Shown piece by piece: positions 14,413 to 29,523 of a stretch of 64,000 bases of DNA. The DNA lies in NCBI GenBank assembly GCA_947176505.1, contig CAMWQW010000017.1, positions 1 to 64,000 of the forward strand. Reading direction: 5' to 3'. Within the stretch, counting starts at the first letter, position 1. Every line of letters begins with the position of its first letter. The stretch is from an uncultured Lachnospiraceae bacterium. GTDB lineage: Bacteria > Bacillota > Clostridia > Lachnospirales > Lachnospiraceae. Both the position numbers and the translations under genes were made by a program. The notes below the pieces were generated by a model. That model did no database searches. It worked only from the letters and a program-made list of their open reading frames with translations, and was not told where the DNA came from.

Positions 14413-15567
14413 ATGTTTTTGCATGAAAGAATTTACCAGATTAACGAGCGGTTGAAGGTGTTGGAAAACACTTTGGATATTGTAATTTGGGGAGCCGGGA
14501 TACATACATGTAAGCTTCTTGAGCTAACGGACATGTTGTCTTATTCGATTACTGATATCGTAGATATCAGTAAAAATAAAAAAGGAAACCCATTTTTTGG
14601 TTTTACGATAAAAAATCCGGAAGAGATAACATGGGATCATGTTGATGCAGTGGTCATATCCGTGCCAGGTAAAGAAATGCAGATTACAGATATGCTGTTA
14701 GAAGAATGGGGTTTTCAAGGCAGGATTATTACATTGTATGAAGGTAATGAAACGACACCGTTTTATTTGTTATATGATGAAAAAGGTTCGAGTATACAAT
14801 TTTTGGGTGACTATGATAATTGGGAGAGCGCTTACCGCGAGTGTGCTGGATACGGGGACAGCAATATTATCAATACAGCTATAGCGAGTGTGGAGAAGGT
14901 GCTAAGCGGAGAAGCAGCATGGGAAAGGGATGGTTTTTTATTTTATGAACCCAAATATAATTATTCCATATGTGCAAGTGTTTTGAAGTGTGCAGTACAA
15001 AATGGAAATAGAAGTGTACGTATATTGGATATCGGAGGTTCTTTAGGCAGCACATATTTTCAAAATAAAGATTATTTAACAGATATAGACAAACTGGAGT
15101 GGGTGGTTGCGGAACAAGACGCCTTTGTTCAGTATGGTAAACAGCATTTGGAGGATGGCTCGTTAAGGTTTATCAGCAGTTCTGATCGTTATGTGGAATA
15201 TAGCAGCTTTGACATTGTACTGATGTCTGGCAGTATACAATATATTAATGAATACGCTGAAATCATTTCTAAAATATTAGAAGCGAAACCGCGCTATATT
15301 ATTTTAGATAGAATTGCAATCGGTGACAGAAGAAGGATATGCAAGGAGATAGTACCGGAAAAAATATATAAGAGCAGTTATCCTATAAGAATTTTTAGTG
15401 AGAACGACATCACCTACTTCTTTAGTCCGGATTATAAGATCGTAGAAAAGGATACTTCAAGTGTTAACGATAAAACGTTATATTTTGCAGATGGACAAGC
15501 TGATTACAGATATTATGTTTTGAGATTAGTGGAGGATGAAAGGGATGAATATGAAAAGAAAATATAG
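14413..15567 (+). CDS. FGAG Rossmann domain fused to TIGR04325-type methyltransferase
   Basis: Residues 1-~115 carry the repeated module: DIVIWGAGIHTCKLLELT, ITDIVDISKNKKG, AVVISVPGKEMQI. Residues ~130-384 match the TIGR04325 (LIC12133-like) putative methyltransferases: DYDNWESAYRECAGYG, a conserved WERDGFLF, ILDIGGSLGSTYFQ (SAM-binding loop), LEWVVAEQ and LMSGSIQYINEYAEII. The product probably methylates a sugar; the family is found mostly in O-antigen and capsule loci. AAAGG (14399-14403) precedes the ATG. It overlaps the next gene's N-terminus. Confidence 0.82.
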   Translation: MFLHERIYQINERLKVLENTLDIVIWGAGIHTCKLLELTDMLSYSITDIVDISKNKKGNPFFGFTIKNPEEITWDHVDAVVISVPGKEMQITDMLLEEWGFQGRIITLYEGNETTPFYLLYDEKGSSIQFLGDYDNWESAYRECAGYGDSNIINTAIASVEKVLSGEAAWERDGFLFYEPKYNYSICASVLKCAVQNGNRSVRILDIGGSLGSTYFQNKDYLTDIDKLEWVVAEQDAFVQYGKQHLEDGSLRFISSSDRYVEYSSFDIVLMSGSIQYINEYAEIISKILEAKPRYIILDRIAIGDRRRICKEIVPEKIYKSSYPIRIFSENDITYFFSPDYKIVEKDTSSVNDKTLYFADGQADYRYYVLRLVEDERDEYEKKI

Positions 15568-16027
15568 ATTGATTATATGCTTTTTGCTAGGATTGGATGT
15601 ATTAAGCATGTATATTATAAGATTACAGCAACATAGCATTAAGACATGGAAAAAAACGGCCGAAAAAAATATCGGTTTGTTTATGTTGATGAACCAGTGG
15701 GTCAGAGTAAAACAAGAGGGGAAAAAGTTGGATGCATATTTTATCAATAACAATTATCAGAAGATTGCTGTTTATGGAATGAGTTATATAGGTCTACGCA
15801 TTATTAGAGAATTGAAGGACTCTGAAATAGAAATTGCATATGGAATTGATAAAAGAGCAGAGGAACTTTCTTCAGATTTGAAGCTTTTTACATTAGAAGA
15901 CGATTTACCGGATATAGATGCGGTGGTAGTTACGTTATTATCAGAATATGATGAAGTCTATGAAGCAATATCAACTAAAGTGAATTGCCCTGTGATAGCC
16001 ATAGAGGATATTTTTAATGAAGTATAG
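15545..16027 (+). CDS. Membrane-anchored Rossmann-like (FGAG-type) protein
   Basis: A short basic start (MNMKRKYR) leads into a hydrophobic stretch LIICFLLGLDVLSMYII that looks like one transmembrane helix; the rest is cytosolic. Residues ~70-155 form the repeated module as a stand-alone domain: IAVYGMSYIGLRIIREL, IAYGIDKRAEE, AVVVTLLSEYDEV. GGAGG (15531-15535) fits ATG 15545 best (9-base spacing); ATG 15536 is too close and ATG 15551 is also possible. It overlaps the previous gene. It is one of very few membrane proteins in the window. It could anchor partners through domain pairing, but the function is unknown. Confidence 0.65.
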   Translation: MNMKRKYRLIICFLLGLDVLSMYIIRLQQHSIKTWKKTAEKNIGLFMLMNQWVRVKQEGKKLDAYFINNNYQKIAVYGMSYIGLRIIRELKDSEIEIAYGIDKRAEELSSDLKLFTLEDDLPDIDAVVVTLLSEYDEVYEAISTKVNCPVIAIEDIFNEV

Positions 16028-16046: not shown

Positions 16047-18296
16047 ATGGATATAAATGAGGAACTGGAAGAGATTATAAGAAAATATCAGTTAGATCAT
16101 TACTATCCGCATTATAGAAATATGTATCGCGCGGAAAAAATATTGCAGAATGTCATAAAAGGGATTATACAAAGAAATGGAAAAGCGATATTTGTAGGAA
16201 ATGATAAGACGGGAATAGCATTCGTTCGTAATATTTCAAAAGATTACGCTGGCATTCGATTTCTTTATTATGCTCGAAATGATATGGGATTGTCCCGATT
16301 GGAGAAAGCGGAGTGGGACAAGGACGAGGAGATATATCTTATTTCATGGTACGGAGCGGAATATGTAGAAAAATGGTTCCGTATGCATTATATACAGTAT
16401 GAATGGATTTATGATATTTTTGAGAGGGAGGGATGTCTTTTTCAACGGGAGTTCTTTGCTTTTGGAAAAGAAAATTTATTAAATTGTGTTAACACAACAG
16501 AGTGGACATTTGAAAACCGGGATTATGTCGAGGCGCTTCAATGTGAATTGTATTGTCAACAGTGCAAGTATAAGAATGCCAGTCACTTGGAGACAAGACG
16601 TATTGCACTGGAGAGATGCTTGTTTATTACAATTTATATGCGGAATTTTGTTTTGGCAGAGAAATATACCAATTTGTTGTCAGAGTATGACAAGCGGTAT
16701 GAGTCTCTGTGGGAAGAAATAGAAGTTCTGTTAATGAAAATAAAACAACATATAAAGCACCGAAAACAGAAAGATATCGTCCTATACTGGTTAGATGCCA
16801 TTCCATATGGTGATGAAGAGAATATGCCGTATTTACAAAATATGATGGAGAAATCTGTTGTGTTTGAAAATGCATTTGCTTACATTGGATATACAAATTC
16901 TACATTGCGAGCTATGTTCTTGGGTAAAAGGGATATAGATGACGAAGTATATGGTACGACAATGATAACGCGGGACAATAGCCCGGTCATAAGACTTCTG
17001 GAAGAGCAAGGGTATCATATCAAAGTTTTTAGCGGAGGAATTAATGATAAATTCCCGATAGCTTATTCTCCGTCCAAATTCTATATGTTTCATTTTGAAC
17101 CGGTATCCAGAAAACTATGGGATATGCTGGCGGAAATGTCAGCGGATGAGACAAAGACATTATGGCTCGTACATGCAATGGAAGGTCATATGCCATATCT
17201 GAATGGTAGAATCAAAGATGACTATTTTAAAGATGGCACAGACCGTAGAGAACGATACAAAGTGGCAAGACGGGAGCTGGATGAGCAACTGGCTTTTTAT
17301 GATTCCTATATGGATGAAGAAGCGATTCGAATTTATATGTCTGATCACGGACAAGTCGATCCTGACACGTATCACGTGCTTTTTAATATCAAATGTAAAA
17401 CATTGAAACCAAGAAAAATAGAAGGTATGTTTACGATGTTGGATTTTAATACAGTTATTGAGCAGCTTCTTGTAAGTGAGGAGGGTGAGATAAGGGAAGA
17501 AAAATTTACCAGAGAATATGTTGAAATAGGAAATTTCGACTGGTATAGCAAGGGGAACATTGAACGGCTATTTAGAAACCGGCTGGGACTACCTATGTCA
17601 TGGATAGGATTGAAGGGGATTATTGATAAAGAATATATTTATCTCCATTATAAAACAGGCAAAGAATGGTTACAGAAAAGAAATGATATGCCCATAACCG
17701 GACCATTGCTGTTTTATGATTGCGAAAGTGATGTATGCGAGCAGGCTTTACTTCCGAAATATAGGCAGCTTGTAAGAGAATATCCCGAAAACATAATATT
17801 GGATGAAAAATTTCGATATTCGAGGTATATATATATTCTGTATCATAATATGTTGAAGCATAATAATATGCCTGAACGTGTCGAAACCATTAACCGTCTT
17901 GTGGAGAGTTATCCTGATAACAGCATTGGAATCCGAATGGGCGGAGTTAATTCTGCAATGCTTTATTATATTCTTACGAAAGAAAACAAAAAGAAAATAT
18001 GGGGGGTTATTGATAACAGTAAAGAATGCCTCTGTAGCAGGTTACAACTGCATGTAGTCAGTTATGACCACATGGATGAGTTGCCGGCGGCTGGTATAAA
18101 AGCAGTACTGATTTCATCCTATACTCATTTAGAAATGTTAAGGGAGGAATCAAAAGCATGGCCTAAGGAGATAGACATTCTGGATATATATGATTGCTTT
18201 GATAAAAATGGAATAAGGTGCAGGGAAAATTTCTATGAATTAAAGGGAACAGATGAAGACTATGACGTAGGGTTTCCCTTTGATGAAAGTAAATGA
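16047..18296 (+). CDS. Cytosolic alkaline phosphatase/sulfatase-fold protein, tandem copy 1
   Basis: First of three tandem ~750-residue paralogues. Residues ~46-125 look Rossmann-like (KAIFVGNDKTGIAFVRN). Residues ~243-450 have the order of motifs of the alkaline phosphatase superfamily (LtaS, EptA, OpgB, sulfatases): VLYWLDAIPYG with Asp250, GYTNSTLRAMFLG with Thr283/Thr286 as nucleophile candidates, HAMEGHMPY with His376/His381, and YMSDHG with Asp433-His434; His443 in YHVLF is also shared. Residues ~626-700 form another Rossmann-like domain (IGIRMGGVNSAMLYYI, GVIDN). No membrane helices are seen, unlike LtaS or EptA. AAAGGAG lies 8-9 bases before the ATG. A phospho-group transferase or hydrolase is likely; the cargo is unknown. 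Confidence 0.75.
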   Translation: MDINEELEEIIRKYQLDHYYPHYRNMYRAEKILQNVIKGIIQRNGKAIFVGNDKTGIAFVRNISKDYAGIRFLYYARNDMGLSRLEKAEWDKDEEIYLISWYGAEYVEKWFRMHYIQYEWIYDIFEREGCLFQREFFAFGKENLLNCVNTTEWTFENRDYVEALQCELYCQQCKYKNASHLETRRIALERCLFITIYMRNFVLAEKYTNLLSEYDKRYESLWEEIEVLLMKIKQHIKHRKQKDIVLYWLDAIPYGDEENMPYLQNMMEKSVVFENAFAYIGYTNSTLRAMFLGKRDIDDEVYGTTMITRDNSPVIRLLEEQGYHIKVFSGGINDKFPIAYSPSKFYMFHFEPVSRKLWDMLAEMSADETKTLWLVHAMEGHMPYLNGRIKDDYFKDGTDRRERYKVARRELDEQLAFYDSYMDEEAIRIYMSDHGQVDPDTYHVLFNIKCKTLKPRKIEGMFTMLDFNTVIEQLLVSEEGEIREEKFTREYVEIGNFDWYSKGNIERLFRNRLGLPMSWIGLKGIIDKEYIYLHYKTGKEWLQKRNDMPITGPLLFYDCESDVCEQALLPKYRQLVREYPENIILDEKFRYSRYIYILYHNMLKHNNMPERVETINRLVESYPDNSIGIRMGGVNSAMLYYILTKENKKKIWGVIDNSKECLCSRLQLHVVSYDHMDELPAAGIKAVLISSYTHLEMLREESKAWPKEIDILDIYDCFDKNGIRCRENFYELKGTDEDYDVGFPFDESK

Positions 18297-18339
18297 GATT
18301 AGGCAGTAAGATGTCTGCAATCTAAGAGGAGGAATAAAG

Positions 18340-20580
18340 ATGGATATCAATGAGGAGTTGAATGGAATCATTTTTAAATATCATTTAGATCGATGTTATC
18401 CTCATTATAAAAACATGAAAAAGGCGGAAAAGATAATAAGAAGCATGATAAATGAGATTGCGGATTGTAATAAAAAAGTACTTTTCGTAAGTGATGATAA
18501 GCTGGGGATAGCATTTATCCGTAATATTTCAAGAGACTATACAGATATTCATTTCCTCTCGTATAAGCATAATGATATGGATTTGCATCTTCTGGAGGAA
18601 GTTGATTGGGATCAGTATGAAGAAATATATCTTATTTCTTTCAATGGGGCAGAGTATGTTGAGAGATGGCTTCGGCTCCATAAGGTGCAATATGAATGGA
18701 TATATGATGTATTTGAACGGGAAGGGCTTTTCCTGCAAAAGGAATTTTTTGCATTAGGGAAAGCAAATATGTTGCTGTTGATTGATCCGAGAAGAGAGCA
18801 GGTTTTCAGCAGCAGTACATATGTCGGTGCAATTCAGTGCGAGTTATATTGTCAGCAAAGTAAATATAACAGTGTTCAGGACTGCAGGACAAAGCGTATT
18901 GCATTGGAGAAGTGTTTGTTTCTGTCACTTTATATGAAAAATTTTCTTGTTGCTAAGGAATATGTTATGCTGCTTATGAAAGATGATGAGCAATATAGAC
19001 ATATGTGGAATGAAGTAGAGGATTTATTATGTCGGATTAAGAGTAAGATAAGCAGTAGAAAAGATGATATTGTTTTGTACTGGTTGGATGCCATACCGTA
19101 TGGCGGTGAATGTGATATGCCGTATTTAAAGCATATCATGAGTGAATCCATAGTATTTGAAAATGCTTTTACTAATATTGCCTATACAAATCCGACGATG
19201 AGAGCGATGTTTCTTGGCAAAAGAGATATAGAGGATAAGGCATATGCCACTACTCATATTACGTGTGAGAATAGTCCGACGCTGCGTCTTTTGAAGGAAC
19301 AAGGATATGCGGTTAAGGTTATTAGCACAAGTTTTAGTCTTAATTTTCAAGATCAAAATAGTCAAACGGATGTAGACTGGCTGCTTCCTGCATCAGTGCA
19401 GTACTGGGATGTGCTTTCAGGTATGCTCTCACAAGAGCAAAAAACATTGTGGATAGCTCATACCTTGGATGCACATGGTCCGTTTTTGAATATCAGAATG
19501 AATGATGAAAACTATGCGAACAAGGGCAAACTTCATAAACTGGCAAAGGAGGCATTGGATGAGCAGCTTGCCTTTTATGACCAAATGATATGTGGTGACG
19601 CAATTCGTATTTATATGTCAGATCATGGAAAAGATGCAATTTATAAATATCATGTATTATTTAATGTTTATCATAAATTATTACAGCCAAGGAAAATAGA
19701 AGGATTATTTTCATATTTGGATTTTGGAACGGTGTTGAAACAGTTGCTGTTAGATGGAACAATCAATGAGGAGGAATTTGAAAAAGAGTACATAGAAATA
19801 GGGAATATGGATTGCTATGATTATGAACATGTTAGAAAAGTATTTGCAAATAGAGAAGCATTGAGCTTGTATTTTTTTGGACATAAAGGAATTGTTGATA
19901 AGGAGTATATCTATATTCATTATGCAACGGGAAAGGAGTGGCTGCATAGGAGAGATGATAAAATGTTGTGTACGCCATTGCTATTTTATGATTGTGAAGA
20001 TGATATATGTGCTCCAGAGCTGTTACCAAAATATAGAAAACTGGCAGGAAAATATCCTGAAGGAATGATCAATGAGGAGAAATTTAAATATTCACGATAT
20101 TTATATAGACTTTATGACAATATTTTGAAGCATAATGACATGAATAAGAGGATTGATATAATCAATCAAATTCTGGCGGACTATCCGAACAAGAGTGTAG
20201 CGATCAGAATGGGAGGCATTACCTCCGCCATGCTTTACTATGTTCTTTCAAAAGAGAATAAGGGGAAGGTGTGGGGGTTTATTGATAACAATGACCGATG
20301 CCTGTGCAGCAGGCTGGGGTTGCCGATTATTTCCTCCGGACAAACAGAAGAAATAAGGGAGAATGGTGTAAAGGCAATTTTGCTTCCTTCATATACTTAT
20401 CTGGCGATGATTAGGGAAGAAGCCAAATCATGGGCTGCGGAGTTTGATATTTTGGATATATATGAATGCTTTGATAGAAATGGAATAGAGTGCAGAGAGG
20501 ATTTCTATAAAGTAAGCGGTACAGAAGAAGACTACGATGTTGGATTTCCTTTTGAAGAAGATAAATGTATTTATATTTAA
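18340..20580 (+). CDS. Cytosolic alkaline phosphatase/sulfatase-fold protein, tandem copy 2
   Basis: Collinear paralogue of the genes on both sides (746 aa). Motifs: VLYWLDAIPYGGE, AYTNPTMRAMFLGKRD, HTLDAHGPF and YMSDHGKD, then YHVLF. The Thr after Pro is kept while the Ser before it is replaced, which supports the second Thr (or the YT Thr) as the nucleophile. N-terminal module LFVSDDKLGIAFIRN and C-terminal IAIRMGG-like module (VAIRMGGITSAMLYYV, FIDNN) are kept, as is the end GTEEDYDVGFPF. AGAGGAGG (18327-18334 region) gives a strong start. The region after HxxxH (where the acceptor should bind) varies between copies, suggesting different acceptors. Confidence 0.75.
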   Translation: MDINEELNGIIFKYHLDRCYPHYKNMKKAEKIIRSMINEIADCNKKVLFVSDDKLGIAFIRNISRDYTDIHFLSYKHNDMDLHLLEEVDWDQYEEIYLISFNGAEYVERWLRLHKVQYEWIYDVFEREGLFLQKEFFALGKANMLLLIDPRREQVFSSSTYVGAIQCELYCQQSKYNSVQDCRTKRIALEKCLFLSLYMKNFLVAKEYVMLLMKDDEQYRHMWNEVEDLLCRIKSKISSRKDDIVLYWLDAIPYGGECDMPYLKHIMSESIVFENAFTNIAYTNPTMRAMFLGKRDIEDKAYATTHITCENSPTLRLLKEQGYAVKVISTSFSLNFQDQNSQTDVDWLLPASVQYWDVLSGMLSQEQKTLWIAHTLDAHGPFLNIRMNDENYANKGKLHKLAKEALDEQLAFYDQMICGDAIRIYMSDHGKDAIYKYHVLFNVYHKLLQPRKIEGLFSYLDFGTVLKQLLLDGTINEEEFEKEYIEIGNMDCYDYEHVRKVFANREALSLYFFGHKGIVDKEYIYIHYATGKEWLHRRDDKMLCTPLLFYDCEDDICAPELLPKYRKLAGKYPEGMINEEKFKYSRYLYRLYDNILKHNDMNKRIDIINQILADYPNKSVAIRMGGITSAMLYYVLSKENKGKVWGFIDNNDRCLCSRLGLPIISSGQTEEIRENGVKAILLPSYTYLAMIREEAKSWAAEFDILDIYECFDRNGIECREDFYKVSGTEEDYDVGFPFEEDKCIYI

Positions 20581-20612
20581 AATGTATCTAATGAAAGGGA
20601 AGAGGTGTAGAG

Positions 20613-22847
20613 ATGTACATTGATGAGGCGCTAAATAAAATTATCTTTGATTTTCATTTAGACAAATATTATCCGCATTATAGAAATATGTATGAAGCGG
20701 AAAAAATCTTAAAGAATATTATCGAAAATATTGTACGGAATAATAAAAGAGTAATATTTGTCGGAGACGATAAAACGGGGATTGCATTTGTCAGACATCT
20801 GTCAAAGGATTGTCCGAATATTCATTTTGTCCATTATAATCGGGATGATAGAACTCTGCACAATTTAAGTGAAATAGAATGGGATGAATATGAAGAAATC
20901 TACCTCATTTCTTATTATAAAGCAGAATATGTTGAACGCTGGTTTAGAACGAAAGGGATAAAAGCTCGATGGATTTACGATATTTTCGAAAGGGGGGGGG
21001 TATTTTTCCAAAGGGAATTTTTTGTTTTCGGAAAAGAGAATATGCTGCCGCTTGTTGATGAGAAAGTACGCACATACAGTAATAGAGGTTATGTTGAAGC
21101 AATGCAGTGTGAGCTGTATATTCAACAAAGTAAATATAGGAATACGGATGACAGTATGATAAAACGTATTGCGCTTGAAAAGTGTCTGTTTCTTGTAATT
21201 TGCATGAGAAATTTTGTGCTGGTCGAGGAATATATGTTATTACTTTCGGAAGAAGATAAACAGTATATTTATCTCTGGAAGAAAATATCTGATTTATTAG
21301 CTGAAATAAGGGCGAAGGTACATAATAGAAAACAAAGAGATATTGTTTTATACTGGCTGGACTGTATGTCTTATGGTGATGAATCAGATATAAAGTATTT
21401 GACGAATATCATGAAGGATTCAGTAGTATTCGAAGAGGCCTATACAAATGTAGGATATACCATTTCAACGCTGAGGGCTATGTTTCTTGGTAAAAGAGAT
21501 ATAGATGACAGAGGATATCGCATTTCACAAATTACACGGAATAATAGTTCAGTTATCCAGTATTTAGAAGAGAGGGGATACCGTATCAAAATTTATAGCG
21601 GCATACTTGACGAGAATTTTCCGGCTGAATATTCTTCTGAACAATTTTATTTGATTCATCTTGAACCATTTTCCAAAAAATTATGGGATATGATGTCTGA
21701 TATGCTGCAGGAAGAACAGAAGACGTTATATATCGTACATGCTATGGAGACACATGGCCCATATTTAAGCAGTAGAATATGTGATGCGAACATAAAAGAT
21801 AATAATGAACGATATAGATTAGCTAGGCAGGAAATAGATGAACAGCTTGGATTTTATGATGCAATGGTGAATCGGGGTGCATTTCGTATCTACATGTCAG
21901 ATCATGGGAGAAGTCAGGTGGCGTTGGAGCGGTATCACATTCTATTTGCTGTTTATCATGAGACATTAGAAGCAAAAAAGATAGAAGAAATGTTCTCATT
22001 ATTGGATTTTGAAAAAGTATTGAGACAGATTATTCAGGATGGTAAGATAGAGGAGCACGAGTTACGAAGAGAGTATGTTGAAATAGGAAACTTAGATTGG
22101 TATAACAAAGAATTTATCATAAAATTATTTGAAAAGAAAACAGATTTGTCTATGATATTTTTTGGGATGAAAGGAATTATTGATAAACAGAATGTTTATC
22201 TGCACTATAGAACGGGACAAGAATGGCTGCAAAGAAGAGAAGATGCGGCATTGAGTGCGCCGGTACTGTTTTATATAGGTCAAGATGATATATGTGAGCC
22301 GACGCTGCTTATGAAGTATCGGAAATTGGCAGGGGAATATCCGGACGATATTGTAAATGATGAGAAGTTCATATATTCTCATTATGTATATGCTTTGTAC
22401 AACAATATGTTACAGCATAATAATATGAACAGGCGAGTTGATGTGATCAATCAGCTCCTGAATGATTATCCTGAACAAAGTATTGCGATCAGGATGGGCG
22501 GCAATACTTCCATGGTGTTGTATCAGATTCTTTCGAAGGAAAATAGAAGAAAGATTTGGGGATTTGTTGACAGTAATGAAATATGCCTATGCAGTAGACT
22601 ATCTTTGCCGATTCTTTCCGTGGATCAGATAGATAGATTAAGCAACATAGGAATAAAAGCAATTTTGATGCCTTCGTATCTGCATTCCCAAATGCTTAGA
22701 AAAGAATCGGAAATGTATCCTGAGGATATTGATGTTCTGGATATATATGATTGTCTGAACAGAAATGGGATAGAGTGCAGAAGTGAGTTCTATAAAGTAA
22801 GTGGTACAGAAGAAGACTATGATGTTGGATTTCCTGTTGATATCTAG
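20613..22847 (+). CDS. Cytosolic alkaline phosphatase/sulfatase-fold protein, tandem copy 3
   Basis: Third paralogue (744 aa), same layout: IFVGDDKTGIAFVRHLS, VLYWLDCMSYGDE, GYTISTLRAMFLGKRD, HAMETHGPYLSS, YMSDHGRSQ, YHILF and IAIRMGGNTSMVLYQI. All metal and nucleophile candidates seen in the other copies are present. A run of nine G lies early in the gene (20992-21000, residues ~127-130) where the other copies have mixed bases. The stop codon is only 42 bases before the likely start of the glutamine kinase-like gene, so this copy looks co-transcribed with the phosphoramidate cassette. AGAGG (20602-20606) precedes the ATG. Confidence 0.75.
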   Translation: MYIDEALNKIIFDFHLDKYYPHYRNMYEAEKILKNIIENIVRNNKRVIFVGDDKTGIAFVRHLSKDCPNIHFVHYNRDDRTLHNLSEIEWDEYEEIYLISYYKAEYVERWFRTKGIKARWIYDIFERGGVFFQREFFVFGKENMLPLVDEKVRTYSNRGYVEAMQCELYIQQSKYRNTDDSMIKRIALEKCLFLVICMRNFVLVEEYMLLLSEEDKQYIYLWKKISDLLAEIRAKVHNRKQRDIVLYWLDCMSYGDESDIKYLTNIMKDSVVFEEAYTNVGYTISTLRAMFLGKRDIDDRGYRISQITRNNSSVIQYLEERGYRIKIYSGILDENFPAEYSSEQFYLIHLEPFSKKLWDMMSDMLQEEQKTLYIVHAMETHGPYLSSRICDANIKDNNERYRLARQEIDEQLGFYDAMVNRGAFRIYMSDHGRSQVALERYHILFAVYHETLEAKKIEEMFSLLDFEKVLRQIIQDGKIEEHELRREYVEIGNLDWYNKEFIIKLFEKKTDLSMIFFGMKGIIDKQNVYLHYRTGQEWLQRREDAALSAPVLFYIGQDDICEPTLLMKYRKLAGEYPDDIVNDEKFIYSHYVYALYNNMLQHNNMNRRVDVINQLLNDYPEQSIAIRMGGNTSMVLYQILSKENRRKIWGFVDSNEICLCSRLSLPILSVDQIDRLSNIGIKAILMPSYLHSQMLRKESEMYPEDIDVLDIYDCLNRNGIECRSEFYKVSGTEEDYDVGFPVDI
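20992..21000 (+). repeat. Nine-G homopolymer inside copy 3
   Basis: The codons for R-G-G-V contain nine consecutive G in frame. Paralogues encode the same region (FEREG) without such a run. Homopolymer G tracts of this length are slippage-prone; a change by one base would truncate the protein near residue 130. This could be a phase-variation switch or simply an unstable run. Confidence 0.7.
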
Positions 22848-22889
22848 GTGCCAAGCATTCTTATTGAAAATGTAGTGGGAGATGGGGAA

Positions 22890-25235
22890 ATGATAAAGTA
22901 TACCAAAGCGGCAATGCTGCAATATCTAAAATCAAATATACCGGGCATTCATATTCTGCCTGTTTTGGTGGTAAAAAGCGTTGATTTTTATAAAAATCCT
23001 CAGGAAACCATTGACTCTGTCTTAAAGTTTGCACAGAATCGATTACTGATCGTACGTTCCTCCTCGACGGCAGAGGATACGGATTTATATTCCAATGCGG
23101 GCAAGTTTGAATCAATTCTCAATGTCAGACCGGAATATGAAGCTGTTAAGGATGCGATTGAAAAGGTTTATCATTCTTATGATACGGATGAGAATGAAGA
23201 GATACTGATTCAACCGATGTTACGTAATATCAGGAAATCAGGCGTTGTCTTTACGGCGGATATGGACACCTTCGCAGATTATTACACTGTGAACTATTAT
23301 GAGGGCGACGATTCAGCAGCGGTTACGGGTGGAAGTTCCGATGCATTGAAAACTTATGTCAGGTATAAACATTCCGAGGTTCCCATTTGTGATGAAGACA
23401 TGAGAAATCTTCTGAATGATTGTGTCCACATAGAGCAGTTTCTGAATGATTCGGCGTTGGATATTGAGTTTGCCATTGACCAAACGGGAACTGTCTATAT
23501 TCTGCAAGTACGTCCGATTGCACGCGGTCAGAAGTGTTGTGACGAGAAAGTTGATTTATCGCCTGCGCTGAGCAGAATTTATAAAAAGGCGCAAAAGCTG
23601 TCGGCAAGACATCCTTTTCTGCTTGGGGACACGACCTGCTTCGGTGTCATGCCTGATTGGAATCCGGCGGAAATATTGGGGGTCAGACCGAAGAAGCTGT
23701 CTATTTCTTTATATAAGGAATTAATCACAGACAATATATGGGCACATCAGAGATATGATTACGGGTATCGTGACTTAACGATGCATCCGCTAATGATATC
23801 TTTCTGCGGTGTGCCTTATATAGACACGAGGATTACATTTAATTCATTTGTGCCGCAGAGGTTGAATGAGAAAATAGCGGAGAAGCTTGTTAACTATTAT
23901 CTTGATAAACTTTCTAAGTATCCGGCATATCATGATAAGATTGAGTTTGAAATCGTTTTTTCATGCTACTATCTGGGGATTCATGATAAATTGAAAGAAT
24001 TGCTTGCGCATGGGTTCAATGAGAATGAAATTACCAGAATTGAATTTTCACTGCTTGAATTGACGAATGACATTATCAGTCCTGACAGTGGGCTTTACAA
24101 GAAAGATATTCAAAAAATCAGGATTTTGGAACAGAATTATGACAAGATTGTCATGTCTGACATTTCTCTTGTGGACAAGATATATTGGCTGATTGAGGAG
24201 TGCAAGGCATATGGAACATTGCCGTTTGCGGGAGTAGCCAGAGCAGGGTTTATTGCAGTTCAGTTCTTGCGGTCGTTTGTCAGTATCGGTATCATCAGTC
24301 AGGAAGAATACGATGCCTATATGAATTCATTGGATACGGTCAATAAGAAAATGAATCGCGACTTGCGTAAGGTGGACAGAGGCGAACTGGATAAGAATGC
24401 TTTCCTTGAAAGATATGGGCATATCCGTCCCGGTACATACGATATTATGTCAAAGCGGTATGATGAAGCCTTTGACGAATACTTCGAGAAGGGAATCTCT
24501 TTGGATAGGGAGGAGACCGAGAACGATTTTTCCTTTACGGAAGAGCAGATGTCCCGTATCCAGACAGAAATGGAGCAGAACGGGCTGCTGATTACCGCGG
24601 AGGAGTTATTGGTTTTCATTAAAGAATCTATTGAAGGAAGAGAGTATCTGAAATTTGTCTTCACAAAATCTGTGAGCAAGATTTTACAATTAATAGAAGA
24701 GCTGGGAGTGAGGGCGGATATTTGTAAGGAGGATATGGCGTATCTGGATATATCGGTGGTCAAGCAGTTGTATGTGGATTTGTATACCGGAGATATCAGC
24801 ACTGTTTTCAAAGAAAATATCGAGCATAACAAAATCCAGTATCAGAGCGCGGTACAGCTTAAACTGCCAAGTATGATTGTGGAACCGGACGACGTCTATT
24901 CATTCTGGCTGCTAAGTGAGGAGCCGAATTTCATCACGCAGAAGAGTGTTACCGCAGACACGGTGGTGCTGGAATCAAAAATTGACTCTGCCAAGTTAGA
25001 GGGAAACATTATCTTTATCCGGGCGGCGGATCCGGGTTATGATTTCCTATTCTCGAAGGGCATCGGTGGTCTGGTGACGCAGTTCGGAGGGGCTAATTCC
25101 CATATGGCGATACGGTGTGCAGAACTGGGGATTCCTGCGATAATCGGCGTGGGAGAAAAGAATTATATGGAATGGAGCCGATGCAGCAGAATGACGATAG
25201 ATTGTTTGAAGAAACAGGTGGTAAAAATAAAATAG
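22890..25235 (+). CDS. L-glutamine kinase-like protein (Cj1418-type; PEP synthase-like)
   Basis: In C. jejuni, Cj1418 uses ATP to phosphorylate the amide nitrogen of L-glutamine, the first step to capsule phosphoramidate. This 781-residue protein has the same layout: an ATP-grasp domain (LLIVRSSSTAEDTDLYSNAGKF, then VYILQVRPIARG near residue 210), a large middle domain, and a C-terminal swivelling phosphohistidine domain (GGANSHMAIRCAELGIPAI, with His738). The PEP-binding barrel of true PEP synthase is missing, as in Cj1418 and rifampin phosphotransferase. ATG 22890 has GGGAG (22877-22881) 8 bases upstream; GTG 22848 has none. The call rests on the neighbouring Cj1415, Cj1416 and Cj1417-like genes; alone it could be another ATP-dependent phosphotransferase. 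Confidence 0.82.
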   Translation: MIKYTKAAMLQYLKSNIPGIHILPVLVVKSVDFYKNPQETIDSVLKFAQNRLLIVRSSSTAEDTDLYSNAGKFESILNVRPEYEAVKDAIEKVYHSYDTDENEEILIQPMLRNIRKSGVVFTADMDTFADYYTVNYYEGDDSAAVTGGSSDALKTYVRYKHSEVPICDEDMRNLLNDCVHIEQFLNDSALDIEFAIDQTGTVYILQVRPIARGQKCCDEKVDLSPALSRIYKKAQKLSARHPFLLGDTTCFGVMPDWNPAEILGVRPKKLSISLYKELITDNIWAHQRYDYGYRDLTMHPLMISFCGVPYIDTRITFNSFVPQRLNEKIAEKLVNYYLDKLSKYPAYHDKIEFEIVFSCYYLGIHDKLKELLAHGFNENEITRIEFSLLELTNDIISPDSGLYKKDIQKIRILEQNYDKIVMSDISLVDKIYWLIEECKAYGTLPFAGVARAGFIAVQFLRSFVSIGIISQEEYDAYMNSLDTVNKKMNRDLRKVDRGELDKNAFLERYGHIRPGTYDIMSKRYDEAFDEYFEKGISLDREETENDFSFTEEQMSRIQTEMEQNGLLITAEELLVFIKESIEGREYLKFVFTKSVSKILQLIEELGVRADICKEDMAYLDISVVKQLYVDLYTGDISTVFKENIEHNKIQYQSAVQLKLPSMIVEPDDVYSFWLLSEEPNFITQKSVTADTVVLESKIDSAKLEGNIIFIRAADPGYDFLFSKGIGGLVTQFGGANSHMAIRCAELGIPAIIGVGEKNYMEWSRCSRMTIDCLKKQVVKIK

Positions 25236-25252
25236 CAGCAGGGGAATATAGT

Positions 25253-25786
25253 ATGAAAAAAAACTTTATGATGTATATGGTCGGAAGAAGTGGAAGCGGT
25301 AAGACGACGATTGCTAATGCATTAGAAGAAGAACTACGAAAAAAAGGAATACAACAGTTACAGGTGATTGACGGTGATGTGATCAGGCAGCAGTTTGGAG
25401 ATATTTTTGGCTATACGTATGAGGAGCGGATGAAATGTAACTGTGCCGTCCGCGTTGTTGTGAAATATTTATTGGAGAATCGTATTTCCGTAATCCTTGC
25501 ACAGGTGGCGTCCTATGAGGAGATGCGTAAGAAGGTGCGGGAGGCTTTTTCCAAAGAGTATATAGAAGTATATGTGAAATGTTCCTATGAAGAATGTGCA
25601 AGAAGAGATGTAAAGGGATATTACAAGAAGCAGCAGAATGGTGAAATGGAAAACTTAAACGGGGCGAATGATACTTATGAGATTCCGCAAAATAGCGACA
25701 TAATAATTGATACGGAGAAAGAAACCGTATCAGAAGCGGTACAGAGGATAATTGCTTATCTGGAGGAGAATGGTTATGGCATATGA
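25253..25786 (+). CDS. CDP-phosphoramidate 3'-kinase-like (Cj1415-type; APS kinase family)
   Basis: A P-loop kinase of the adenylylsulfate kinase family, 177 aa. Walker A is GRSGSGKTT (residues 11-19); LQVIDGDVIRQQFGDIFGYT holds the conserved D-G-D substrate loop, and the family LID segment follows near KGYYKKQQNGE. No ATP sulfurylase or sulfate gene is nearby, so sulfate activation is unlikely. In C. jejuni the related Cj1415 phosphorylates the ribose 3'-OH of cytidine diphosphoramidate. Start ATG 25253 follows AGGGGAA (25240-25246); the frame is open upstream into the previous gene. The last codons overlap the next start. Confidence 0.83.
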   Translation: MKKNFMMYMVGRSGSGKTTIANALEEELRKKGIQQLQVIDGDVIRQQFGDIFGYTYEERMKCNCAVRVVVKYLLENRISVILAQVASYEEMRKKVREAFSKEYIEVYVKCSYEECARRDVKGYYKKQQNGEMENLNGANDTYEIPQNSDIIIDTEKETVSEAVQRIIAYLEENGYGI

Positions 25787-26354
25787 ATATGTGACGGATA
25801 ACAATCTATATCAGAAACAGACTTATATGTACAGCGAATACAGAGGGAGAGAGTTTCTAAAGGATTATCTGGACTCAAGACACCAGTATGTAGACAGTAT
25901 AAAGTATAAGAACGACGAAAGCGAATCCGTATCGCGTGAAGAAGGGGTGGCGGATCCGGTGCAAAGCAATCTGCTGCTGATCCTTCGTAAATTAGAGTCA
26001 GGGGAATATGACAGAGAACTTACAGACAGGATGAATGCGTATACGAAAAGCTTCGAAGTGCGTAAGAGAATTTATTCTGGTTATGACAGCCGGTGGAAAC
26101 CTGTGGAGGGTGCCGGATTTGAAAACTATCTAAGCTATCTTTTGTTTGCAGACTGTTTATTGCATATGTACGAGAATACAGGGTGTTTGAAATATTTCAG
26201 TTGTTTGTTGAAAGTGGATGATACGATGCTGTCTGTAAGTGGTCATTTGTCTGGAAATCTCACAGGGTATTTGAGAACGATTATTGTTCGAGAACTGGAG
26301 ATTTTTGAGCAGTTGCTGTGTAAAAACGAAATCGATTTGGGGGTAACGGGATGA
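25776..26354 (+). CDS. Unknown 192-aa protein in phosphoramidate cassette
   Basis: Not recognised. Start ATG 25776 follows GGAGGAG (25762-25768) by 7 bases and overlaps the preceding stop by 11 bases; its own stop overlaps the next start (ATGA), so it is translationally coupled on both sides. It is predicted all-helical with no membrane segment; the second half has SYLLFADCLLHMYENTG and KYFSCLLKVDDTMLSV, a pattern I associate with small helical partners of formyltransferase-like genes in Clostridia glycan loci. The tight coupling to the formyltransferase-like gene suggests a complex or consecutive steps. Confidence 0.75.
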   Translation: MAYEYVTDNNLYQKQTYMYSEYRGREFLKDYLDSRHQYVDSIKYKNDESESVSREEGVADPVQSNLLLILRKLESGEYDRELTDRMNAYTKSFEVRKRIYSGYDSRWKPVEGAGFENYLSYLLFADCLLHMYENTGCLKYFSCLLKVDDTMLSVSGHLSGNLTGYLRTIIVRELEIFEQLLCKNEIDLGVTG

Positions 26355-27085
26355 TATTAGAAGAATTTGCATTGCTGGCATCCGACACAGCCCGGACGAA
26401 AGCATATCTGCAGGCGATGATACGTGATAACAAATTGCCGGGTCTGTGCGTCGTCTATTCGGATGATATTTCCGGAATGAAAGAAGAGGCGGAGAAATAC
26501 CAGAGAAGCGTAGAAGCGGAGAAATACTTTGACAGGAATATTCCGATTCTATTTTCTCTGAATGAGGCAGGGATTTCTTATCTGCTGCTTGAGAATAAAG
26601 ATATTAATTCCGAGCAAATGAAGGATGTCCTCTTGGGTCTCAAGCAGAAATATCTGATCTATTCTGGATATGGCGGCTATATATTGAAAGAGCATTTATT
26701 TCACATGGATAAGAAATTCATTCATGTGCATGCCGGCATTCTGCCACAGTATAGAGGAAGTACGACTGCATATTATAGTTTCCTTCAGGAGAAAGAGTTC
26801 GGTGCAACTGCGATTTTTCTAAGCGAGGGGATTGATGAGGGCGAGATGATCGTGCAGGAAACTTTTCCGGTGCCGGAAGAGCCGGTGAATATTGATTACA
26901 TTTATGAACCGTATATTCGCTCGCGGGTATTGCTTAAAGCGATAGGGAAGTACCTGCAAAATGGTGAACTGGTAAGCGGTAGGCAGCCTTCGGAGGGAGC
27001 GGAGACATATTATATTATTCATCCACTCTTAAAACATCTGGCGATCATGGGAATTGAGAAGACGATAGGAAGGAGGATATTGTGA
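26351..27085 (+). CDS. Formyltransferase-like protein
   Basis: Resembles the catalytic domain of methionyl-tRNA formyltransferase and of sugar N-formyltransferases (10-formyl-THF donor). The core block IHVHAGILPQYRGSTT (about residues 122-137) matches the family NxHxSLLPxYRG loop, and GIDEGEMIVQE carries the conserved DxG aspartate. However the catalytic Asn of NxH is replaced by His here (HVH), so activity may differ. At 244 aa it lacks the usual tRNA-binding C-terminal domain, which fits a small-molecule substrate. It overlaps both neighbours by 4 bases (ATGA, GTGA). Its place inside the phosphoramidate set suggests action on an amino or phosphoramidate group, which is a guess. Confidence 0.75.
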   Translation: MILEEFALLASDTARTKAYLQAMIRDNKLPGLCVVYSDDISGMKEEAEKYQRSVEAEKYFDRNIPILFSLNEAGISYLLLENKDINSEQMKDVLLGLKQKYLIYSGYGGYILKEHLFHMDKKFIHVHAGILPQYRGSTTAYYSFLQEKEFGATAIFLSEGIDEGEMIVQETFPVPEEPVNIDYIYEPYIRSRVLLKAIGKYLQNGELVSGRQPSEGAETYYIIHPLLKHLAIMGIEKTIGRRIL

Positions 27086-27696
27086 GAACAGTCATATATA
27101 CGCAGCGGGTAGAGGTGATAGAAAGTTATCAGGAGCGAAGGGACTGTGCAGACCAGAGGATAGCGGATTTTATTTGTGCCTGCGGTTTTCTGCCGATTCC
27201 GCTGCCGAACAGAGCAGAACAGGCGGAACGGATAATAGAGGCGGTTCATCCGGCAGGAATCATCTTGACAGGCGGCAACAGCCTGACGGCTTACGGAGGC
27301 AATGCACCGGAACGGGATGCTATGGATAAGGCACTGATTGAGCTTGCCATTCGCTATAAGATACCACTTTACGGTTTTTGCAGAGGAATGCAGTCGATTC
27401 TTGCTTATTATGGGAATGAATTAGTGAATGTGGAAGGTCATGTAGCGGTGAGGCATTTCGTACATGCCGGACAGGAGGACTATGAAGTGAACAGTTATCA
27501 TAATCAGGCGTGTAGGGAATTGAGGGAAGACTGCAGACTAATGATAACGGCGCAGGCAGCGGATGGAGTGATTGAAGCGGTTCGGCATGAGAGCCTTCCG
27601 ATTGTGGGAACCATGTGGCATCCGGAGCGGGAAGAAACTTATGTGCAGAAAGATATAATCAGGGTAACAGAGTTGTTTGTAAATGCAGACAATTAA
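27082..27696 (+). CDS. Class I glutamine amidotransferase-like hydrolase (Cj1417-type)
   Basis: In C. jejuni, Cj1417 hydrolyses CDP-L-glutamine to glutamate and cytidine diphosphoramidate. This 204-residue protein has the class I amidotransferase triad: Cys100 in GFCRGMQSIL, and His180/Glu182 in MWHPERE; the oxyanion region is LTGGNSL near residue 62. Length matches Cj1417 (about 200 aa). Related peptidase C26 enzymes cut gamma-glutamyl-GABA, an alternative if the neighbours were different. The GTG start at 27082 follows AGGAGG (27071-27076) and overlaps the formyltransferase-like stop. Confidence 0.83.
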   Translation: MRTVIYTQRVEVIESYQERRDCADQRIADFICACGFLPIPLPNRAEQAERIIEAVHPAGIILTGGNSLTAYGGNAPERDAMDKALIELAIRYKIPLYGFCRGMQSILAYYGNELVNVEGHVAVRHFVHAGQEDYEVNSYHNQACRELREDCRLMITAQAADGVIEAVRHESLPIVGTMWHPEREETYVQKDIIRVTELFVNADN

Positions 27697-27751
27697 GTGA
27701 TTGAGAAAGAAGATTACACAAAAAAATTATAAAGAATGGAGAGATTAAAAA

Positions 27752-28708
27752 ATGGACAATCAAAAATACTATGGATGTGAAAATCCGGAATCGGTAAGCT
27801 ACTTGGAATTTGGGTCAATCAATCTAGTGAAAGGCGAAAAGAAAATATGGGGATACTGGCAGGATCAGATTGCCTATGATTTATACATGTTTGCCAGATA
27901 TTCAAGGGATTTATTTGCATTTAGAAAGTTTTTCGGTGAAAAAGAAAAGTCAGTGGAAAAATTGAATGAATATGTATTACGCTCAGCGCATAATAAGCTG
28001 ATGGATTATATTTTCAAATACGCAGGGATACTTGCTATTTCCAACCGGGAGGGAGTAATTTGTGAAAATGGAAGTTCTCTATATGGTTGGATTGATGAGG
28101 CAATAGCCTGCGACTATGTATTTCGTGGAGGAAAGAATATAGCAAGAATTCAGGAACTTGAATATGTAGGAAGTGATATATCTGAACTGATGAATGAAGG
28201 CGCTGAGAGTTTTCACAGCAATGTGAAGATGAGTTTTACGACAGAAGACACAATAGACGGGGTCATAACAGATATACATAATAAGATGATGAAGAAAATT
28301 GCACTTTTTTACGGATTAAGTGTGAGTGTACGTTATGCCGTAAGAAAAGCGGAAGATTTAGTTAAAGCGGCGGATTTGTCTGAACTGACTATGTATAACA
28401 GATTAAGTCTTACATATGATGACCGGACTCTAGTGTCGGTATATGGAACAGGTAAGAGTGTTTACATTGTATCTCTTCCTAAGTTAGTTGAAGGATTGAA
28501 GGCAAAAGGAATTTACGCGAAATACTGTACTGCCAATATGCAGCATGGGAAAGACGGCGAGAATACCGTCAGGGCGTCTATTATCACATCTAAATCTGAA
28601 GAGGTATTAAATACATTTATATCGGCGTACGAAGAATGCATTGAAAAGAGTATTCAGATACCGGGTGTCGAGAGAGGGGAATGGAAAGACTTAGAGGAGC
28701 TGCTGTAA
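27752..28708 (+). CDS. Unknown 318-aa protein in phosphoramidate cassette
   Basis: Not recognised. ATG 27752 is preceded by GGAGAG (27738-27743). It lies between the Cj1417-like and Cj1416-like genes and ends 32 bases before the latter. Sequence is soluble and mixed alpha/beta; notable stretches are KIWGYWQDQIAYDLYMFARY near the start, ISNREGVICENGSSLYGWID in the middle, and SVYGTGKSVYIVSLPKLVEGL near residue 230. No nucleotide-binding motif or catalytic signature is obvious. Position inside a dedicated pathway makes a transfer, modification or regulatory role plausible; the phosphoramidate methyltransferases of C. jejuni have SAM motifs that I do not see here. Confidence 0.75.
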   Translation: MDNQKYYGCENPESVSYLEFGSINLVKGEKKIWGYWQDQIAYDLYMFARYSRDLFAFRKFFGEKEKSVEKLNEYVLRSAHNKLMDYIFKYAGILAISNREGVICENGSSLYGWIDEAIACDYVFRGGKNIARIQELEYVGSDISELMNEGAESFHSNVKMSFTTEDTIDGVITDIHNKMMKKIALFYGLSVSVRYAVRKAEDLVKAADLSELTMYNRLSLTYDDRTLVSVYGTGKSVYIVSLPKLVEGLKAKGIYAKYCTANMQHGKDGENTVRASIITSKSEEVLNTFISAYEECIEKSIQIPGVERGEWKDLEELL

Positions 28709-28740
28709 CATCAGAAAGAGAAAATAAGGGAGATAAGAAC

Positions 28741-29523
28741 ATGAAAGCAATTATTCTGGCAGCAGGACAGGGAACAAGATTAAAGAAGTATACGGAGAAC
28801 TTACCGAAAGGAATGCTTTCCTTTATGGGGCAGACGATTATTGAACGCCAGATAGAGATGTATCGAAAGTGTGGATTAGACAATATCATCGTAGTCCGTG
28901 GATTTGCTGCAGACAAAATAGAGTATGAAGGAGTTACCTATTATACGAATGAGGATTACGCCAATACGAATATGGTAGAGTCTTTGATAGCGGCGAAGTC
29001 AGAGTTTGACGATGATGTTATTGTCAGTTATTCTGATATCTTATTTGAAGAGGATATGCTGAAAGCGATGATGAAGTCGGAAGCGGATTTTGCAGTTGCG
29101 GTAGATGATAACTGGAAAATATATTGGGAGAAGCGTTACGGCAAGGTGGATTTTGACACGGAGAGCCTCGCTTTGGACGAAAATGATAACATTGTTGAAT
29201 TGGGACTGGAAAGCCCGAAACTGGAGGACATTGATGCAAGATATGTCGGTCTGCTGAAATTCTCCAAAACCGGATTGGAACATATTCAGGCTATTATGAA
29301 TGCGGCATATGCCGATTATGAAGATAAACCGTGGCAGCAGTCGGGTAAGACGGTGCGTAAGGCATATATGACGGATTTGCTGCAGGCGGTCATTGAATCC
29401 GGTCGCCCCGTAAAGGCGGAAAGATTTAATCACGGCTGGATCGAATTTGATACGAACGAAGACTATGAGAATGCGTGCAGATGGGTCGAAGACGGAAGTA
29501 TTAATGATGTGATAAGGCTGTAG
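28741..29523 (+). CDS. L-glutamine phosphate cytidylyltransferase-like (Cj1416-type nucleotidyltransferase)
   Basis: In C. jejuni, Cj1416 joins CTP and L-glutamine phosphate to give CDP-L-glutamine. This 260-residue protein is a GT-A-type nucleotidyltransferase: AIILAAGQGTRLKKYT (3-18) with LPKGML and then YANTNMVESL, a pattern shared with LicC (phosphocholine), PntC and Cj1416; metal-binding YSDI lies near residue 100. LicC is the main alternative, since a LicD gene occurs at 2.5 kb, but the genes around it favour the phosphoramidate route. Start ATG 28741 follows AAGGGAG (28727-28733); the frame is open 20 codons upstream into the previous gene. Confidence 0.82.
   Translation: MKAIILAAGQGTRLKKYTENLPKGMLSFMGQTIIERQIEMYRKCGLDNIIVVRGFAADKIEYEGVTYYTNEDYANTNMVESLIAAKSEFDDDVIVSYSDILFEEDMLKAMMKSEADFAVAVDDNWKIYWEKRYGKVDFDTESLALDENDNIVELGLESPKLEDIDARYVGLLKFSKTGLEHIQAIMNAAYADYEDKPWQQSGKTVRKAYMTDLLQAVIESGRPVKAERFNHGWIEFDTNEDYENACRWVEDGSINDVIRL

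Follow-up and report, generated by a model that had tools for sequence, protein, structure and literature searches.

Does a bacterium of the Lachnospiraceae make an activated phosphoramidate like that of Campylobacter jejuni, and if so, how is the group finished and where does it go? The question is raised by a run of genes in a 64,000-nucleotide stretch of DNA, which we call the window (contig CAMWQW010000017.1 of the uncultured Lachnospiraceae assembly GCA_947176505.1; the source genome has 4.17 Mb and a completeness rating of 100%). An original prediction had matched four genes between positions 22890 and 29523 to the C. jejuni enzymes Cj1415 to Cj1418, whose pathway yields CDP (cytidine diphosphate)-phosphoramidate 3′-phosphate (PMC11800397).

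In our view this run of genes probably serves to make an activated phosphoramidate and to pass it on to a surface glycan. The prediction was right on the four enzymes and most likely right on the chemistry up to CDP-phosphoramidate; that the organism carries a phosphoramidate-decorated glycan we infer. The window is a variant of the known system, with a CysC-like 3′-kinase, an atypical formyltransferase pair replacing the usual methyltransferases, and candidate transferases of its own.

The core of the pathway

Positions 22890 to 29523 hold a single co-oriented run of seven genes on the plus strand. The four genes named beforehand are all there, and three further genes (25776-26354, 26351-27085 and 27752-28708) had been left out. 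Counting from 16047 to 29523, ten consecutive genes share one orientation, in the order SULF1, SULF2, SULF3 (alkaline-phosphatase-superfamily proteins), the glutamine kinase, APSK (a kinase of the adenosine 5′-phosphosulfate, or APS, kinase fold), UNK200, FMT (a formyltransferase-fold enzyme), GAT (a hydrolase), UNK318 and NTT (a cytidylyltransferase). The gap from kinase to APSK is 17 bases, and APSK, UNK200, FMT and GAT overlap one another by 4-11 bases.

The L-glutamine kinase (22890-25235, plus strand) is a homologue of Cj1418. Its frame opens with an alternative start, a GTG at 22848, one base past the end of SULF3, and has its first ATG at 22890. As had been predicted, it lacks the PEP (phosphoenolpyruvate) barrel, since its Pfam matches are PPDK_N and the PEP-utilizers mobile domain alone. 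It matches the NCBIfam model NF004508, named 'hypothetical protein', nearly full-length with 975.9 bits (cut-off 501), where the C. jejuni kinase (locus L069:2911-5247) reaches 1173.1 bits, and an alignment of the two kinases (782 columns, 689 bits) shows 46% identity. The motif GGANSHMAI starts at residue 747 in the numbering of the GTG frame; we take its histidine to be the functional one of the swivelling domain. In a kinase tree made by a quick method without bootstrap, the window kinase belongs to an 86-row clade together with C. jejuni (support of 99 in the Shimodaira-Hasegawa-like approximate likelihood-ratio test, SH-aLRT), and both this tree and the genome scan described below give Lachnospiraceae as its nearest relatives.

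A match to NF004508 alone is no proof of the pathway. Six homologues from the same family (L035-L040), 33-35% identical to the window kinase, score over the cut-off without any of the companion genes and form a separate clade, so the model is broader than the pathway. In these six loci the kinase lies near 7-10 kb, and by eye the neighbours in L035 and L038 resemble housekeeping genes.

GAT (27082-27696, plus strand) is a class I amidotransferase with the cysteine and histidine motifs GFCRG and WHPE. Its best family is NF045546, gamma-glutamyl-CDP-amidate hydrolase (120.7 bits; the next family gives 50.9), and its 36% identity with the C. jejuni hydrolase (105 bits) agrees with the predicted Cj1417 type. 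NTT (28741-29523, plus strand), the proposed CTP:phosphoglutamine cytidylyltransferase, is 32% identical to the Cj1416 homologue of C. jejuni.

How far does the gene set extend?

We scanned the contigs of 84,980 species and found at least 541 relatives of the kinase, the best 80 of which were analysed; the sample therefore leans towards close relatives. Companion genes were called with bit-score thresholds that we set ourselves. Among these 80 loci, GAT is present in 72, NTT in 74 and both in 71, with APSK in 63 and all four genes in 57. A methyltransferase of the Cj1419/Cj1420 type occurs in 52, a CysQ-like gene in 14, FMT in 6 and SULF in 4. Loci with kinase, GAT and NTT cover 13 named phyla, and loci with all four genes cover 11. 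The arrangement is compact: in 60/80 GAT lies on the strand of the kinase and starts no more than 400 bases past the end of that gene, and NTT follows within 1.2 kb in 51/80.

A larger table of 90 loci consists of the 80 scan loci, two family genomes, seven plasmid loci and the window; L034-L040, 9 of 16 plasmid records and all relatives ranked below the best 80 stand outside it. GAT and NTT are both present in 80 of these 90 loci, and all four genes in 63. Full context, meaning at least 4.5 kb on the upstream and 3.5 kb on the downstream side, is available for 59 loci; of these, 53 have GAT and NTT together, 48 have APSK and 45 have all four genes. Thus the set does occur outside Campylobacter, as had been proposed, though not as an exception, since it is spread over many phyla.

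Within the family, 10 of 299 genomes have a kinase over the NF004508 cut-off. The order kinase-APSK-UNK200-FMT-GAT-NTT is found in the window's own genome and in two others (G273 and G104), and also in L049 and L051. The remaining family matches are the companion-less L035-L040 and L034, which is cut by a contig end. Chance does not explain the run, because this gene order recurs in the family and because kinase, hydrolase and cytidylyltransferase co-occur in 71/80 loci.

The gene set also occurs on plasmids. Sixteen plasmid records match the kinase, 14 of them over most of its length, and six of the seven plasmid loci that we fetched have GAT and NTT nearby, three of these with an APS kinase as well. 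Distant homologues of the kinase are present in one phage record (MT837632.1:682-2988, 34%) and one viral contig (L158, 31%).

Three plasmid loci are peculiar. In Agrobacterium vitis (L044:8851-13940), the genes after kinase, hydrolase and cytidylyltransferase encode a LysE exporter and a CDP-alcohol phosphatidyltransferase, and no APS kinase is nearby; the product is perhaps an exported small P-N compound. In the Vibrio alfacsensis locus (L042:5320-13898), the kinase of the three-gene core is extended at its N-terminus; a gene of the CDP-glycerol glycerophosphotransferase family lies downstream, and cysD/cysN lie upstream on the opposite strand. The Cupriavidus taiwanensis kinase (L046:8998-11340) scores 896.1 bits with NF004508 and has no hydrolase or cytidylyltransferase within 9 kb; nifK is nearby.

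The proposed pathway

As we picture it, kinase, NTT and GAT would produce CDP-phosphoramidate, to which APSK would then add a 3′-phosphate. FMT and UNK200 would modify the phosphoramidate with a one-carbon group, formyl being the simplest, where many cassettes carry SAM (S-adenosylmethionine) methyltransferases. Finally, the three upstream SULF proteins would place the group on different acceptors of the glycan island.

These steps do not deserve equal confidence. From the protein sequences, the chemistry from glutamine kinase through to CDP-phosphoramidate is very likely. The 3′-phosphorylation of CDP-phosphoramidate by APSK is reasonably likely, and action of FMT on the phosphoramidate, to which the gene neighbourhood points, is a tentative assignment. 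The most specific version is that APSK, UNK200 and FMT make a one-carbon-modified phosphoramidate (for example, N-formyl-phosphoramidate) as a 3′-phosphonucleotide, which alkaline-phosphatase-superfamily enzymes transfer to a surface glycan, in a retooled sulfation-type system. That is rather unlikely in full, and we know of no printed precedent for such a P-N group or for this pairing of donor and transferase.

Are the SULF proteins the transferases?

SULF1 (16047-18296), SULF2 (18340-20580) and SULF3 (20613-22847), all on the plus strand, are tandem paralogues of 744-749 amino acids, SULF2 and SULF3 being 54% identical. Two of the three pass the Pfam model PF00884 (26.2, 22.6 and 30.5 bits, respectively; cut-off 25). 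An AlphaFold model of SULF3, of low confidence (predicted local distance difference test, pLDDT, 66.5; predicted template modelling score 0.61), finds by Foldseek the Protein Data Bank (PDB) structures of YejM, the best match, BcsG, MCR-1 and sulfatases. The top E-value is 2.1e-11; the matches to BcsG and MCR-1 have 10-14% identity and query-normalised template modelling (TM) scores below 0.3. Six residues (D250, T283, H381, D430, H431 and H442) are invariant in the seven aligned SULF rows, and presumably are the metal ligands and the nucleophile of the alkaline phosphatase superfamily. There is no evident membrane segment; the best Kyte-Doolittle 19-mer of SULF1 scores 1.30.

SULF genes lie directly upstream of the kinase or APSK in the window, L033, L049 and L115, and at more distance in L056 and L076. 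Relatives are found in 5 of 299 family genomes. Three of these have the FMT-type cassette (in G273 the match is weak and on another contig), and the other two, G288 and G082, have an ATP sulfurylase and an APS kinase within a few kb of the SULF relatives, on the same strand in L168 and on the opposite strand in L167. What the two kinds of neighbourhood share is a 3′-phosphonucleotide donor, 3′-phosphoadenosine 5′-phosphosulfate (PAPS) in one and presumably 3′-phospho-CDP-phosphoramidate in the other. That is our reason for reading the SULF proteins as transferases that use such donors, a reading which these few neighbourhoods make quite possible.

Alternatively, the SULF proteins could be hydrolases (phosphatase, sulfatase or phosphodiesterase), with an unseen protein transferring the group. 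We regard this as possible if somewhat doubtful. The superfamily does contain many hydrolases, and YejM gives the best structural matches, with sulfatases among the others. On the other hand, the invariant T283 stands where sulfatases carry a cysteine or a serine; BcsG and MCR-1, which we take to be phosphoethanolamine transferases, are among the matches too; and three tandem paralogues suit several acceptors.

Two observations concern the SULF islands themselves. L167 (7236-15991) and L168 (5068-11149), from two Lachnospiraceae-type genomes without a glutamine kinase over the cut-off, bring together ATP sulfurylase, APS kinase, SULF relatives and a pyruvate-kinase-barrel-like protein (PF00224 in L168), possibly a glycan sulfation locus. 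A small protein family of 158-173 amino acids with an N-terminal hydrophobic stretch also recurs in islands that hold SULF genes (window 15536-16027, L168:17221-17697, L169:12532-13026 and, recognised by eye, L170:7259-7780).

The 3′-kinase and the formyltransferase pair

APSK (25253-25786, plus strand) is the proposed nucleotide 3′-kinase, 30% identical to that of C. jejuni. We built a tree of 76 rows, with 69 cassette kinases and 7 reference kinases (4 of these with sulfate-activation neighbours). The 69 cassette kinases form one side of a branch, weakly (96/43), which speaks neither for nor against a single origin. The approximately unbiased (AU) test rejects a tree in which the nine APS kinases linked to FMT stand together as one clade (p=0.0003); either the module swapped its kinase or the kinases diverged.

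If the transfer leaves a 3′-phosphonucleotide, one would expect a nucleotidase to remove it. Enzymes of the CysQ type clear 3′,5′-bisphosphonucleotides, and the 14/80 loci with a CysQ-like gene near the kinase (e.g. L059:4907-5755) fit that expectation; the one of the 14 that was scanned passes TIGR01331.

One cassette APS kinase, L053:9434-9949, sits on a long branch and is 53-54% identical to the kinases adjoining ATP sulfurylase in L167 and L168; its product may be PAPS instead of the phosphoramidate donor.

FMT (26351-27085, plus strand) matches PF00551 with 50.3 bits. Nine of the 90 loci hold proteins of its type; the hosts are of Lachnospiraceae type (window, L032, L033, L049, L051), Jannaschia (L108) and gammaproteobacteria (L122, L126), and the ninth locus is L099. 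Each of the nine has the series APSK-UNK200-FMT, and the nine loci fall in three places of the kinase tree. In all nine aligned sequences, His-x-His occupies the position of the Asn-x-His of formyltransferases, and the aspartate of the IDxG motif is retained; we assume both to be catalytic in ordinary formyltransferases. The solved VioF structure has an asparagine at the place aligned to the replaced residue. UNK200 (25776-26354, plus strand), the constant neighbour of FMT, has no Pfam or NCBIfam match. Its AlphaFold model is all-helical (pLDDT 72.5), and a fold search gives no PDB match with E≤0.001.

Does the pair stand in for the methyltransferases? The matches listed within the 64 kb window include no Cj1419/Cj1420-type methyltransferase above 30 bits. 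Across the table, such a methyltransferase occurs in 0/9 loci with FMT and in 55/81 others (Fisher p=0.0001, kinship ignored), and in full-context loci in 0/7 with FMT versus 38/52 without (p=0.0003, kinship again ignored). In an FMT-first search of 398 genomes of the phylum, the window's own protein scores 378 bits, and the matches in 22 other genomes, which we take for ordinary formyltransferases, are partial, at 58-68 bits in frames of 311-344 amino acids; viral contigs have no FMT relative.

Could the run start as in C. jejuni, with APSK and FMT/UNK200 acting on another molecule, so that the final group is no plain phosphoramidate? CDP-phosphoramidate might be used directly, for example, or an N-phospho-amide be modified. 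In favour of this, Vibrio alfacsensis, Agrobacterium vitis and Roseovarius have the three-gene core and show no APS kinase within 8-9 kb of it, and the window 3′-kinase lies on the CysC branch. Such a scheme is nevertheless unlikely: an APS-kinase homologue accompanies the kinase in 63/80 scan loci and in 48/59 full-context loci, and in L098, a near relative by its glutamine kinase, the same slot is taken by a Cj1415-type kinase that passes the model NF004041 (154.3 bits).

A sulfation module next door?

It could also be that APSK and the SULF proteins form a sulfation module (PAPS plus a sulfo-group enzyme) whose place next to a phosphoramidate cassette is incidental. PF00884 is named Sulfatase, APSK passes the apsK model TIGR00455 (152.1 bits, cut-off 138.7; the C. 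jejuni kinase has 126.9), and in L167 and L168 the SULF relatives do have an ATP sulfurylase and an APS kinase close by. Against this, APSK follows 17 bases after the glutamine kinase, a position kept in the window, L032, L033, L049 and L051, and the window's genome has neither ATP sulfurylase (PF01747) nor CysD (TIGR02039) matches, CysN not having been searched. We therefore consider the sulfation module very unlikely.

The original prediction had already noted an absence of sulfate genes in general. It is not the result of a blind model, since the ATP sulfurylases of L167 and L168 do give PF01747 matches. APSK is the sole PF01583 match of its genome, which thus has one APS-kinase homologue and no visible source of APS; with neither ATP sulfurylase nor CysD matched, we reject sulfate assimilation as the purpose of APSK. 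A PAPS_reduct match exists on another contig (39.4 bits, cut-off 22.5, in a 463-amino-acid frame), and this family matches 14 of 14 control genomes.

An ordinary phosphocholine-type (LicC) function, or one of the rifampin phosphotransferase or PEP synthase type, would suit the fold families and the LicD gene at 2502-3323, but can be set aside, since the kinase scores at most 72.2 bits with PEP synthase models and 40.9 with the rifampin phosphotransferase Rph against its 975.9 with NF004508 and 689 to C. jejuni, and NTT has 60.9 bits to LicC (phmmer) versus 133 to the Cj1416 homologue (BLASTP), a rough comparison of two different programs.

Evidence that weighs against the proposal

Several observations weigh against the pathway as we propose it, some of them in its core. 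GAT stays well below the NF045546 cut-off (120.7 of 250), where the C. jejuni hydrolase scores 330.7, and the hydrolases of all eight non-Campylobacter relatives that were scanned are below it too. Nine of the 80 loci lack GAT or NTT; a contig end truncates four of these, but not the other five (L054, L074, L079, L086 and L089).

APSK is not of the Cj1415 type that had been predicted, even though the APS-kinase-like gene itself is there. It scores 107.5 bits with NF004041, below the cut-off of 127 (C. jejuni, 290.6), and it is closer to E. coli CysC (99.4 bits) than to the C. jejuni 3′-kinase (77.4). In the tree, the window-type kinases (window, L032, L033, L048, L049 and L051) and the 7 CysC-type references are separated from the other 63 with support 99/89. 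In the profile check named beforehand, the kinase passes, the hydrolase finds its best family yet remains sub-cut-off, and APSK fails the Cj1415-type model.

The mutual exclusion of FMT and methyltransferase amounts to few evolutionary events, with three independent pairs on starred branches and a sign test of p=1. Moreover, all loci were picked by their kinase, and the FMT-first search covered the 398 phylum genomes and viral contigs. The methylating role of Cj1419 and Cj1420 is itself unproven, because their knockouts show no apparent capsule change, and a 2025 paper assigns neither a function (PMC11800397).

As for the SULF proteins, relatives are present in just 6/90 loci, and so missing from most cassettes, and they occur in two family genomes (G288 and G082) without a kinase over the cut-off. 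The transferases of C. jejuni are Cj1421 and Cj1422 (PMC9561416, PMC11800397). Those proteins, which we identified by gene position, resemble a DUF2972 family that adjoins Campylobacterales cassettes. Comparing SULF with the DUF2972 family at the Cj1421 position detects no kinship (hhalign probability 0.5), in a weak comparison of shallow alignments (6 and 4 rows).

The genomic setting

The setting of the run, scanned over 20 window genes, includes the LicD gene, cytidylyltransferases, an IspD-type gene (a similar frame at 32993 lies outside the scan), a TagF-like protein, glycosyltransferases, a PfkB/cytidylyltransferase fusion and WbsX. These surroundings fit a glycan island. The genome also has eight flagellin-domain matches, every one on other contigs, so that the group may end up on a polymer or on a protein glycan. 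UNK318 (27752-28708, plus strand) is an orphan without a Pfam match. Among the 299 family genomes its single match is its own genome, and in the fetched comparison loci it has no relative at E 1e-4, though the gene sits inside the run.

Relation to known systems and outlook

Homologues of all four C. jejuni enzymes lie in one run of the window (kinase 46%, hydrolase 36%, cytidylyltransferase 32%, 3′-kinase 30% identity). It differs from C. jejuni in its CysC-branch 3′-kinase, in FMT and UNK200, in the SULF proteins and in its Lachnospiraceae-type host. The C. jejuni locus L069 has the order two methyltransferases, kinase, GAT, NTT, APSK; it is not annotated, and we presume its Cj numbers from gene order.

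Sulfate activation, with ATP sulfurylase, APS kinase and transfer from PAPS, resembles the window in its 3′-phosphonucleotide logic, in the CysC-like kinase and in the SULF relatives of L167 and L168, and differs in that no sulfurylase was found in the window's genome. BcsG and MCR-1 are like SULF3 in fold and in the threonine and metal-ligand pattern of the superfamily. The SULF proteins differ from them in lacking an evident membrane segment, and the identity and TM-scores are low, as given above.

Is such a gene set new outside Campylobacter? A 2019 review has O-methyl phosphoramidate identified only in Campylobacter so far (PMC6429109), a 2022 review calls the glutamine kinase 'C. jejuni-specific' (PMC9561416), and a phosphoramide group is mentioned in a Xanthomonas lipooligosaccharide (PMC8042644). 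In 2025, genes for O-methyl phosphoramidate were predicted, from structures, in the Borg extrachromosomal elements of archaea (PMC12660748). Like the window, the Borg elements are a case of a predicted phosphoramidate cluster outside Campylobacter. Among the papers that our searches listed, this is the only account that we saw of the gene set outside Campylobacter, and primary papers may mention it earlier.

With kinase, hydrolase and cytidylyltransferase together in 13 phyla, accompanied by differing finishing genes, phosphoramidate glycans become testable far from Campylobacter. The distribution also bears on Cj1419 and Cj1420, since methyltransferases of this type are present in 52/80 kinase loci despite the silent knockouts (PMC11800397). 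To this picture the window contributes candidate transferases and an atypical formyltransferase. Phages recognise the phosphoramidate tag of C. jejuni (PMC9561416), and so the tag may matter for gut phages too.

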